Shown here one piece after another: positions 32,044-38,191 of a stretch of DNA of 38,191 nt. Position 1 is the first letter of the stretch. Every line of letters starts with the position of its first letter. This DNA comes from Minisyncoccota bacterium. GTDB lineage: Bacteria > Patescibacteriota > Minisyncoccia > Minisyncoccales > Minisyncoccaceae. Below the pieces are notes generated by a model. That model was not told the origin of the DNA and ran no database searches. It was given only the letters and a program-made list of their open reading frames with translations. The stretch covers positions 1 to 38,191 of the forward strand of contig JAQWEU010000004.1 in NCBI GenBank assembly GCA_028704755.1, in the 5' to 3' direction. The translations under genes and the position numbers were made by a program.

Positions 32044-32202
32044 TTAGAACAAATTAAAGGGCAAAGTCAGTAAATAAAAAATGAGGCTTTCGTTAGTCTG
32101 CCTCTTTTTGAGTTCAGGACAAGCCCGACAAGGATGCTCTTCCTGCATAGCCCATTCATATAGGAAAATATCATCATTCCTATACGCACAATAATTGCAC
32201 AT
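32044..32202 (-). CDS. Small putative zinc-binding protein (CxxC...CxxC)
   Basis: A 52-aa ORF: MCNYCAYRND at the start and EEHPCRACPE at 21-30, so two CxxC pairs spaced for a zinc finger. GTGGTG lies upstream as a weak SD. A hairpin GAGGC...GCCTC with a T-run lies inside the last third of the frame (32079-32107), so either the true product is shorter or that hairpin is not a terminator. It is downstream of leader cassette copy 1 and could be its expressed gene. Confidence 0.4.
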   Translation of the reverse strand: MCNYCAYRNDDIFLYEWAMQEEHPCRACPELKKRQTNESLIFYLLTLPFNLF

Positions 32203-32267
32203 TTTAAACACCACGCTTAGAAATTCTCCTGAACCTTTCGAAAAGACTCAGGAGGACTGCCAAACGA

Positions 32268-32378
32268 TTAGAGCAATCCATATCCGATTTTTAAAACGAA
32301 ATGAATAACGATAACACGAACGATTGTCAGAGTGGAGGTTTTGATAAGGATCAATTTTGCAATATTCTCGCTTCTCAT
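32268..32378 (-). CDS. Leader-peptide ORF of cassette copy 1
   Basis: A 36-aa ORF, MRSENIAKLILIKTSTLTIV then a hydrophobic end. The first 17 codons lie inside the 135-bp repeat and are shared with copy 2 with E/D and T/A changes and silent changes, hinting at coding. SD AAAGGGGG is about nine bases before the ATG. An alternative is a non-coding regulatory RNA. Confidence 0.4.
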   Translation of the reverse strand: MRSENIAKLILIKTSTLTIVRVIVIHFVLKIGYGLL

Positions 32379-32442
32379 TGTTTGCTTCCCCCTTTCACCT
32401 TGGCACTCATACTATAGCATATTATTATATATTTGTCAATAG
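32308..32442 (-). repeat. 135-bp promoter-leader cassette, copy 1
   Basis: Aligns without gaps to 34079-34213, offset 1771. It contains TTGACA (32439-32434), 17 bases, TATAGT (32416-32411), then AAGGTGAAAGGGGGAAGC, an ATG at 32378 and, further on, AAAACCTCC, which can pair with the GGGGG of the SD. The promoter half is identical between copies except near the start site. Confidence 0.9.
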
Positions 32443-32452
32443 TAACAGTGCA

Positions 32453-32478
32453 TAAAAAAAGAGCTATTGAGGCTCTTC
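32453..32478 (-). terminator. Intrinsic terminator of the 32477 gene
   Basis: AAGAGC, a short loop and GCTCTT followed by TTTTTT on the minus strand. It overlaps the stop codon and is followed within 15 bases by the cassette promoter. Confidence 0.75.
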
Positions 32479-32911
32479 ATCCAAACGATATCTGGCTATT
32501 GCTCTTGATAAAAGCCTCTGCTTCACCAAAAGGAAAATATATTCTCTTCCCAGAAACAATATCCAGGACCATCTGCCTTATATTCTCTATCTTGGCAAAA
32601 AAAGGTATTTCTTTACCATATTCAGCCAATATATTCCCTAACTCCAAAGACCAAATGACCTTAAGAACACTATCAGGATCACAATCGCATATATCCCCCA
32701 CTACATGAGCGAGTTCATCGCCATACAGCTTGAAGGAATCCAATATGCTCAATAATCCATATTCCGGAGAATCCACTCCTAATAACTGCTTTGCCCTATC
32801 ACATACGGCAAAGAATGTCATGATCACTCCGACATCACCCTCGGTCACCTCAAAGATGCACTCCTCGAATGGCATCCCAGGGCTTAACCGGTTAAGCTTC
32901 AATGTTCCCAT
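32477..32911 (-). CDS. Orphan soluble protein with a strong SD
   Basis: A 144-aa protein, acidic, mixed helix and strand, with four Cys (including DICDCDPDSV). No TM, no recognised family. Its leader holds GGGAGGTGA four bases before the ATG, the best SD in the window, although the 16S gene here has no matching anti-SD. Promoter TTGAAA (32965-32960), 16 bases, TATAAA (32943-32938). Confidence 0.65.
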   Translation of the reverse strand: MGTLKLNRLSPGMPFEECIFEVTEGDVGVIMTFFAVCDRAKQLLGVDSPEYGLLSILDSFKLYGDELAHVVGDICDCDPDSVLKVIWSLELGNILAEYGKEIPFFAKIENIRQMVLDIVSGKRIYFPFGEAEAFIKSNSQISFG

Positions 32912-32937
32912 TATTCACCTCCCAATTGACTTCTTAA

Positions 32938-32965
32938 TTTATAACACAGAAAGGATATTTTTCAA
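32938..32965 (-). promoter_or_regulatory. Promoter of the 32477 gene
   Basis: TTGAAA, 16 bases, TATAAA; +1 near 32931, giving a leader of about 20 bases with the SD. Confidence 0.6.
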
Positions 32966-32978
32966 TACCGAGGAATAA

Positions 32979-33800
32979 TTACCTATCAAGCCATCTCCTG
33001 ATGATTCTAGCCACTTTCTCAGGTTCCTCGAGCGGAATTAAATGTCCACCCTCTTCTATGACCTCCAGCTCTGCATTCGGTAATAATGAAGCCAAATCAC
33101 TTATCGCTCCGATCGGAGAAATTTCATCAAGACCTCCAGCTATCACCAATGAATCGGTTTTCACCTTCTTACCACTAGGCACAAGATCATAATTATTGAA
33201 TTCATCGAATATTTCCATACTTGTCTTGGTATCTATTCTTTTCACCTCCTCAGCATCTCTTTTCATTATTTCCTTACGCCTAAGAGTATTCTTTGACTTG
33301 AAGATTACCATATCTCCGACTTTCTTACCTAATCCATTAGAAAGCATCATCCTCTTCATGTATTCAGGCATTACGCCAGCTAAGGAATAATATGCAGAAA
33401 TGATCCTATCGAATACCCCTTCCACTCTCAATACAGGAGCGATCAGGATCAACCCCTCCACCCTATCAGGATGATTTCCAGAATATACAAGAGCTACTCT
33501 TGATCCAAAAGAATGACCCATGATACTGACCTTCTCCACGCCAAAAGAATCAAGGAAGGTGTCAAGCCAATTTTCATAATCAGCTAAATATGCCTTTACG
33601 AGCGGATCAGACTTTCCACAGGCAGGCAAATCCGGTATCACTATCCGATAACCTTCCCCTATCAGATTAGCCAATTCTAACAAACCCAGATGATTACCTG
33701 GAAAACCATGAAGCAGTATTAGTACTTTCCCCGATGCATTATTATCAAGATAAAACACCTTCCTATTATTAATTATAATCAGGTTCTGTTGGAATTCCAT
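32979..33800 (-). CDS. Alpha/beta hydrolase
   Basis: A 273-aa hydrolase. The oxyanion region is LLHGFPGNH (about 29-37), the nucleophile elbow is GHSFGS (about 95-100), an acid lies around GGLDEISPIG and the catalytic His is in GGHLIPLEEP. This matches esterase/MhpC-like enzymes; the substrate is not evident. No signal peptide. The -10 box TACCAT is only about nine bases upstream of the ATG, so the mRNA is nearly leaderless, and a perfect palindrome covers the -10 and start codon. Confidence 0.88.
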   Translation of the reverse strand: MEFQQNLIIINNRKVFYLDNNASGKVLILLHGFPGNHLGLLELANLIGEGYRIVIPDLPACGKSDPLVKAYLADYENWLDTFLDSFGVEKVSIMGHSFGSRVALVYSGNHPDRVEGLILIAPVLRVEGVFDRIISAYYSLAGVMPEYMKRMMLSNGLGKKVGDMVIFKSKNTLRRKEIMKRDAEEVKRIDTKTSMEIFDEFNNYDLVPSGKKVKTDSLVIAGGLDEISPIGAISDLASLLPNAELEVIEEGGHLIPLEEPEKVARIIRRWLDR

Positions 33801-33837
33801 ATACCTATATGGTATAGAAATTTTACTATTAAGTCAA
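33797..33837 (-). promoter_or_regulatory. Promoter with start-site palindrome, alpha/beta hydrolase gene
   Basis: TTGACT (33837-33832), 17 bases, TACCAT (33814-33809); +1 near 33802, two bases before the ATG. Bases 33797-33812 form CCATATA-GG-TATATGG, a perfect inverted repeat and possible operator. Confidence 0.6.
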
Positions 33838-33905
33838 AATATTTATCAATGAAATACTATTGTCCTTATACCACCTCAAAAAAAGATGGGCAGAACTGGA
33901 ATAAA

Positions 33906-33933
33906 CATAAAAATAGGCACATCGATGCCTATT
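33906..33933 (-). terminator. Intrinsic terminator of the copy-2 leader transcript
   Basis: AATAGGCA-TCGATG-TGCCTATT hairpin followed by TTTAT on the minus strand. Confidence 0.65.
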
Positions 33934-34032
33934 ATTATGTTACTAAGTAATATCAAAGAACGCACTATTCTGACAATTCTGCTCAATGCTCCTTTTGCTC
34001 GAATATTCACACATATCCAGAAAAACAAGGAT

Positions 34033-34149
34033 TCAGCAGGATTGTCGAACCATTTCGACATCCATATTGAATTTTGAATGATAATACGAACCATTAGTCA
34101 AAGCGGAGGTTTTAATAAGGATCAATTTTGCAATATTGTCGCTTCTCAT
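34033..34149 (-). CDS. Leader-peptide ORF of cassette copy 2
   Basis: A 38-aa ORF, MRSDNIAKLILIKTSALTNG at the start, diverging from copy 1 after about codon 18 (then YYHSKFNMDVEMVRQSC). It shares the AAAGGGGG SD. It could be a leader peptide or part of a non-coding RNA. Confidence 0.35.
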   Translation of the reverse strand: MRSDNIAKLILIKTSALTNGSYYHSKFNMDVEMVRQSC

Positions 34150-34213
34150 TGTTTGCTTCCCCCTTTCACCTTGGCACCTATACTATAGCATATTATTATA
34201 TATTTGTCAATAG
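34079..34213 (-). repeat. 135-bp promoter-leader cassette, copy 2
   Basis: Matches 32308-32442 without gaps. TTGACA (34210-34205), 17 bases, TATAGT (34187-34182). The boxes, the spacer and the AAGGTGAAAGGGGGAAGC leader are identical in both copies. Confidence 0.9.
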
Positions 34214-37656: not shown

Positions 37657-37723
37657 ACCTTTAGATTAATTCAGTGATCACTCGCGAACTAATCCAAACC
37701 GACACTTTCAAAATATAAATAAA

Positions 37724-38191
37724 TGATCCACGAGCAGCTTCCGCTACCCGTGCCTTGTTACGACTTCGTCCCTCTCGCTGAGCTTACCTTAGGTCCACAT
37801 AGTGGAACTTCGGGCACTCCCAACTCGCTTGACGTGACGGGCGGTGAGTACAAGACCCAGGGACATATTCACCGCAGCGTGGCTGATCTGCGGTTACTAG
37901 CGATTCCGGCTTCATGAGGTCGGGTTTCAGACCTCAATCCGAACTGAGGGGCCGTTTGATAAGATTGGCTCCGCCTTACGGCTTGGCTACTCTTTGTCGG
38001 CTCCATTGTATCACGTGTGCAGCCCAGGGCATCAAAAGGCCATGCTGATTTGGCGTCATCCTCACCTTCCTCCCGGTTGTCCCGGGCAGTCCCCTATGAC
38101 ATATAAAACATAGGGCAAGGGTTGCGCAGGTTAACCCATTTAAGGGAGCAACTCAAGCCACCTGCTGACGACAACCATGCAGCACCTGGTC
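37724..38191 (-). rRNA. rrs: 16S ribosomal RNA, 3' part (468 bases), without anti-SD
   Basis: The 3' domain matches well: GTGCTGCATGG, GGGAGGAAGGTGAGGATGACG-like, CACACGTG, GGAATCGCTAGTAA, TCACCGCCCGTCA, GAAGTCGTAACAAGG and helix 45 (GTAGC-GGAA-GCTGC). The end is GGATCA and then TTTATTTATATTTTG, where CCTCC is expected. Between CAGC and GCGCAACCC the length is normal but the sequence is swapped in a compensated way (CTCGT/ACGAG becomes CAGGT/ACCTG; GGGTTAAGTCCC becomes CCCTTAAATGGG). TACTCACC replaces TACACACC, a change also known in Patescibacteria. The 5' part lies outside the window. Confidence 0.96.

Follow-up and report, generated by a model that had tools for sequence, protein, structure and literature searches.

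The 38,191-nt stretch of DNA from a Minisyncoccota bacterium that was analyzed here (the window) carries a promoter and the leader behind it twice on its minus strand, at 32308-32442 and at 34079-34213, spaced 1,771 bp. This arrangement raises the question of what has been duplicated: a mobile regulatory leader, a short peptide or a family of RNAs. All three had been considered in a sequence-only reading of the window, which described the cassette and a consensus promoter in each copy. Both descriptions are correct: the two copies are real, and each starts with TTGACA-17-TATAGT and a TG extension of the -10 box.

The duplicated cassette and its surroundings

We compared the two copies with each other and with the 1.1-Mb genome from which the window comes (G000). 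BLAST aligned copy 1 and copy 2 at 93% identity across ~137 bp (E = 2e-52). By region, 31 of 33 promoter positions and 77 of the next 81 nt are identical (93-95%), while upstream of the -35 box the copies show no homology. They had been described as gapless and divergent thereafter. They are indeed near-identical, but a 1-nt indel separates them after CTxTGAC (~32326 / 34097), and homology is still recognizable, if indel-rich, for ~80 nt past it (score 47, compared to a best of 35 in 5,000 shuffles). Therefore, the unit common to both copies begins near the -35 box and is well preserved to just past CTxTGAC. The features of the two copies are as follows.

32411..32439, minus strand: promoter of copy 1, TTGACA-17-TATAGT with extended -10 (TG), 11 of 12 consensus positions
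32323..32407, minus strand: predicted RNA element of copy 1 (P1/P2 hairpin), onset ~4 nt past the -10 box; 90.1 bits with covariance model R2, whose training set includes copy 1
32271..32378, minus strand: 36-codon ORF of copy 1, proposed as a leader peptide but not considered to be what is conserved here (no matches elsewhere, frame lost in homologues)
32226..32254, minus strand: strong hairpin 3' of the element in copy 1, CUCCUGAGUC..GGUUCAGGAG, from folds; sequence not conserved
32044..32202, minus strand: 52-aa CxxC..CxxC mini-ORF (MCNYCAYRND...), a doubtful gene from translation that overlaps the terminator-like hairpin; no Pfam match
32074..32104, minus strand: terminator-like hairpin of copy 1, GAGGC..GCCTC then ATTTTTT, read from the sequence, 78 nt before alaS
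34182..34210, minus strand: promoter of copy 2, TTGACA-17-TATAGT with extended -10
34094..34178, minus strand: predicted RNA element of copy 2 (P1/P2 hairpin); 88.2 bits with R2, copy 2 being in the training set
34033..34149, minus strand: 38-codon ORF of copy 2; past codon 18 its frame is shifted against that of copy 1
33972..34046, minus strand: long imperfect hairpin 3' of the element in copy 2, from folds
33912..33933, minus strand: intrinsic-terminator-like hairpin of copy 2, from the terminator scan

Copy 1 is thus followed by a hairpin, the CxxC mini-ORF, a terminator-like hairpin and alaS. Behind copy 2 lie the long hairpin and its terminator-like hairpin, and then an alpha/beta hydrolase gene. 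Copy 1 had been said to lead to the mini-ORF and copy 2 to a terminator. Both are present, but a terminator-like hairpin ends copy 1 as well; it is absent from the terminator scan because its loop exceeds 8 nt. A terminator-like site is also located upstream of the copy 1 promoter. No transposase or terminal repeats were seen beside the cassette. As a separate observation, the start of the contig (window 2-1564) contains ~180-bp repeats, six copies in register that are 66-82% alike.

Further members and the predicted hairpin

A diverged third member (own3) is located elsewhere in the same genome, at G000:C14:3082. It first appeared as a weak BLAST match, and reading its sequence revealed TTGATT-17-CATAAT followed by GTGCCAAGGTGAGTGGGGGA and, ~40 nt later, by CCCTCACTTTGAC; the promoter geometry is that of the window copies, and GTGCCAAGGTGANNGGGGGA is identical. 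It is preceded by a terminator-like site and followed by a 143-aa ORF that has no family match and is unrelated to the accessory ORFs of relatives described below. A pattern search of G000 allowing up to three mismatches returned exactly three sites, the two window copies and own3, and none with the reversed control. Since the pattern was derived from these three copies, the result is informative only about close copies, of which G000 has no more. We then searched 60 relatives with a model of the window copies that was based on sequence only, the promoter being left out. It identified G003:C7:100914 (E = 1.5e-5) and, weakly, G002:C24:5610 (E = 0.025), the latter recognized by its motif and promoter, given the weak E-value. 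Both carry GCCAAGATGANNGGGGGA and a strong promoter directly upstream, which had not been used in the ranking.

The family therefore comprises five members in three genera of one bacterial family: copy 1, copy 2, own3 and those of G002 and G003. In all of them the element begins within a few bases of a sigma-70-like promoter, and all share GCCAAGRUGANNGGGGGA. A single duplication would not account for this distribution over unrelated loci, with three sites in G000 and a further one in G002/G003. The search for more copies in the genome and its relatives, whose failure had been named as the observation that would speak against the cassette, yielded own3 and the G002 and G003 members, so this objection no longer applies. 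Moreover, as these members share promoter, start position and structure with the window copies, they favor the proposed mobile regulatory leader or RNA family.

We subsequently built a covariance model (R2) after adding own3, G002 and G003, so that all five members form its training set. They score 71-90 bits, and the next best match in 247 genomes of the order reaches 24.6 bits. The best other match in 384 genomes of the class scored 27.4 bits and is no further member, and 380 genomes of the phylum gave none besides the five at E <= 1e-4; these genome sets overlap, and R2 was scored on a capped set of candidates from each genome, which means that distant members may be missed. Among the matches listed, the exact 18-nt motif occurs in the 247 genomes of the order at these five places only. 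Matches to R2 in order and class with E between 1e-4 and 0.1 were inspected and dismissed, as none combines the motif with a promoter. The 18-mer also matched nine sites in GTDB species genomes, about the number expected by chance, and four in viral contigs; all are from unrelated organisms and none fits the model. Further patterns on viral contigs gave nothing, or sequence lacking the promoter or the 3' strand. BLAST-level promoter matches in relatives turned out to be AT-rich promoters with unrelated sequence downstream, and a frequent near-match across the order, GCCAAGGTGAACGGGTGA (L112), is presumably a stretch of 23S rRNA, judging from its surroundings. With Rfam 15, the window matched 16S rRNA and two tRNAs only, none on the element, and the three weak matches at loci L005, L057 and L058 (E up to 5) are not on the element either. 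Judged by these comparisons, the element represents an orphan RNA family that is new and narrow but familiar in kind, with no Rfam match.

The core of the predicted structure is P1, a 9-bp helix of CAAG[G/A]UGA[A/G] with [U/C]UCA[C/U]UUUG, as drawn from the best-paired members. In the five-row alignment (A4) it consists of C7-G82, A8-U80, A9-U79, G10-U78, 11/77, U12-A76, G13-C75, A14-U74 and 15/73. A one-base bulge follows, then GG-CC (G17-C72, G18-C71), a one-sided AU-rich internal loop and P2, GGGA-UCCU (19-22 with 59-62), which closes a variable loop. The loop letters GGGGGA and AAACC are near-invariant across genera. A covariance analysis of the leader, as had been suggested, identified compensatory changes at two P1 pairs. 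At pair 11/77, G002 and G003 have A-U where the three G000 members have G-C. At 15/73 the division is different: own3 and G002 have G-C, the remaining three (copy 1, copy 2, G003) A-U. Hence, on any tree that groups the members by genome, both sides of 15/73 changed more than once. The P1 covariation score is 0.240, compared to a shuffled mean of 0.159; this value is reached in 7 of 500 shuffles. When the partner strand is shifted by 1-3 columns, the paired cells fall from 95% to at most 64%. RNAalifold recovers P1 unprompted, as does single-sequence folding for most of the helix in G003, G002 and own3. The covariation rests on two pairs because there are just five members, two of them nearly identical. 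Folding energies were not clearly lower than those of dinucleotide shuffles (z from +0.4 to -1.6), P1 contains A-C mismatches (two in copy 1, one in copy 2), and neither P2 nor GG-CC shows compensatory changes among the five members; for these reasons the structure as a whole is likely rather than proven. Taken together, the alignment makes a conserved P1 helix in the five members likely.

Coding potential and the 16S rRNA tail

The leader also contains an ORF, which had been read as ~17 codons of a possible leader peptide. It is present in both window copies but is broken between them by the 1-nt indel. The element would in that case encode a leader peptide or small protein, MRS[ED]NIAKLILIKTS..., and the ATG and 18 codons common to copies 1 and 2, where two of the four differences are silent, are compatible with this. 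In G003, too, an ATG begins a frame that stays open across this stretch; its residues are similar, which follows from the similarity of the DNA. In own3, however, the nearest ATG runs straight into TAA, and G002 lacks an ATG, with a stop interrupting the corresponding frame. Members further differ by indels of 1 nt and 5 nt, lengths that are not multiples of three and so break the frame. The peptide (starts 32378 and 34149) had no match in 20 other family genomes, phages or plasmids. With start codon and frame absent in two of the five members, we rejected the leader peptide on frame conservation and consider it highly improbable.

A second suggestion concerned AAAACCTCC in the leader of both window copies, which was said to be able to mask a GGGGG Shine-Dalgarno (SD) sequence and to equal the anti-SD core that the 16S rRNA has lost. 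The loss is genuine: the window 16S 3' end (37716-37761, minus strand) reads GGATCATTTATT, without CCTCC, and 15 of 15 tails recovered in the family (loci L178-L192) read GGATCA[TA]TTATTT, again without the core. An SD-like stretch is likewise missing ahead of most window genes; exceptions are the 144-aa gene at 32911 with GGGAGGTGAATAATG and, in relatives, the accessory genes of G014 and G020 with GGAGGAAAA..ATG. The proposed role of AAAACCTCC did not hold up. This stretch is the 3' strand of P1 and corresponds to AAAACCTTC in G003, TAAACCCTC in G002 and TTATCCCTC in own3; its variation (CCTTC/CCCTC) follows that of the 5' strand at pair 15/73. Since CCTCC varies along with its helix partner, we rejected an anti-SD mimic. 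GGGGG does pair with the AAAACCTCC region but is not a credible SD sequence, because the 16S rRNA of this lineage lacks CCUCC.

Genomic context and possible roles

The members in G002 and G003 are located at one syntenic locus, rnhB - element - ORF - rpmF - nusB - rnc - rpsP (gene names from protein sequences, by homology and order). Here, the element heads the ~240-nt leader of an accessory ORF, and no terminator was found between the two. Its position in a 5' leader is therefore clear for G002 and G003 and less so for the window copies. The leader contains a second common hairpin, GGTAGCGC..GCGCTGCC, found nowhere else in 21 family genomes. The accessory ORFs of G002 and G003 are 26% identical. 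They match (hhalign probability 95.6%, E = 1.2e-8) the accessory ORFs that genus g5 carries at this locus behind a short leader without the element. This indicates that the RNA is better conserved than the protein downstream and that the gene can exist without the RNA. The same locus lacks the element in G004, G010, G013 and G016. Pfam gave no match for the downstream ORFs, including the G002/G003 accessory ORFs and the 143-aa ORF of own3.

The rnhB-rpmF interval (L141, L142, L154-L162) is a variable spot in the family, with accessory ORFs that differ by genus; in one accessory ORF family, to which the G002 and G003 ORFs belong, a CxxC motif is often found at the end. G000 has no bL32 (rpmF) match at E <= 0.001, compared to 17 of 21 family genomes with one, which may reflect a missing contig, loss or a divergent copy. 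In G016 (L154), G013 (L158), G020 (L159) and G014 (L162), a short inverted repeat lies directly at the predicted transcript start of the accessory genes, e.g. AGTCCTTAAAGGACA in G014 and G020. Going by these repeats, it looks as if 5'-terminal stems might be a habit of the clade.

What the element does can be narrowed down by its surroundings. We see roughly an even chance that it is an orphan structured RNA domain at the extreme 5' end of transcripts, promoter-borne, duplicated here and probably acting in cis as a leader. A promoter would lead, very close to the predicted transcript start, into the conserved hairpin of ~80 nt, which would be transcribed (transcription is predicted only) and might, as a 5'-terminal leader domain, set the stability or expression of its own transcript. 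In G002 and G003 this transcript would encode the accessory protein between rnhB and rpmF; copy 1 would head a short transcript with the CxxC mini-ORF, and the transcript of copy 2 may have lost its ORF. The promoter common to all members suggests that promoter and hairpin were copied together, and they may have spread as one cassette. The downstream genes share no theme that would point to a ligand or a regulated pathway.

For the window copies, the rival that appears to fit best is a family of free-standing small RNAs, short transcripts (~265 nt for copy 2, ~330 nt for copy 1) with their own terminator that would act on other RNAs or on protein. Each window copy has its own promoter and terminator-like hairpin, copy 1 and own3 are each preceded by a terminator-like site, and copy 2 lacks a convincing ORF. 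This reading seems to fit G002 and G003 less well, where the element is part of an ORF leader, and outside the hairpin nothing is conserved in all five members that could be a shared target site; we regard it as possible, if on balance unlikely. Less likely still is a plain 5' stem-loop that guards the mRNA from decay and hitch-hikes with a strong duplicated promoter, with neither ligand nor specific regulator. The helix onset 4-7 nt from the predicted start would suit such a role, and accessory genes without the element (G013, G014, G016, G020) also have their inverted repeats at this position. However, mere protection does not need GGGGGA and AAACC to be near-invariant across genera, and the invariant loop letters rather argue for something that recognizes them. 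Copy 1 could also be an attenuator controlling alaS (alanyl-tRNA synthetase), which starts 78 nt past its terminator-like hairpin. But ~220 nt and the mini-ORF lie between element and hairpin, the other four members are not near alaS or other synthetase genes, and Rfam gave no T-box match upstream of alaS, so we give this very little credence. An extension of the promoter-borne leader domain would be a transferable, SD-independent expression element, in which the structured 5' end brings ribosomes or a regulator to genes acquired recently and the cassette moves from locus to locus as a unit; the family 16S rRNA without an anti-SD core would accord with this idea, which we consider improbable.

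Stem-loops of the ompA type, located a few bases from the transcript start, stabilize mRNAs. The element resembles them in lying within a few bases of its predicted start and differs in its nearly invariant loop and in the presence of the same sequence at unrelated loci. In horizontal regulatory transfer, or with duplicated promoter regions, a promoter with its leader occurs at several loci independently of the downstream gene. The same is true for the promoter and leader described here, which in addition carry a structured RNA. The term 'horizontal regulatory transfer' is found in PMC5890482. With the orphan structured leader RNAs from comparative genomics (candidate motifs of Weinberg et al. 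2010, PMC2864571), the element shares a short hairpin upstream of genes, conserved loop letters, compensatory pairs and the absence of a known ligand. In contrast to these motifs, it has five members in one bacterial family, its promoter and start are conserved, its downstream genes are unrelated, and it is not in Rfam 15.

Genomes of the order measure 0.3-1.4 Mb, which suggests that the organism belongs to the Candidate Phyla Radiation. A literature search on riboswitches and noncoding RNA in this radiation returned nothing, and there seems to be little on regulatory RNA in reduced-genome lineages. The consensus defined here, with its five members and the two compensatory pairs of the helix, can be used to search larger metagenome collections. 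Should promoter and leader move together as a cassette, this would be an unusual example of a regulatory RNA that spreads independently of the gene it controls.
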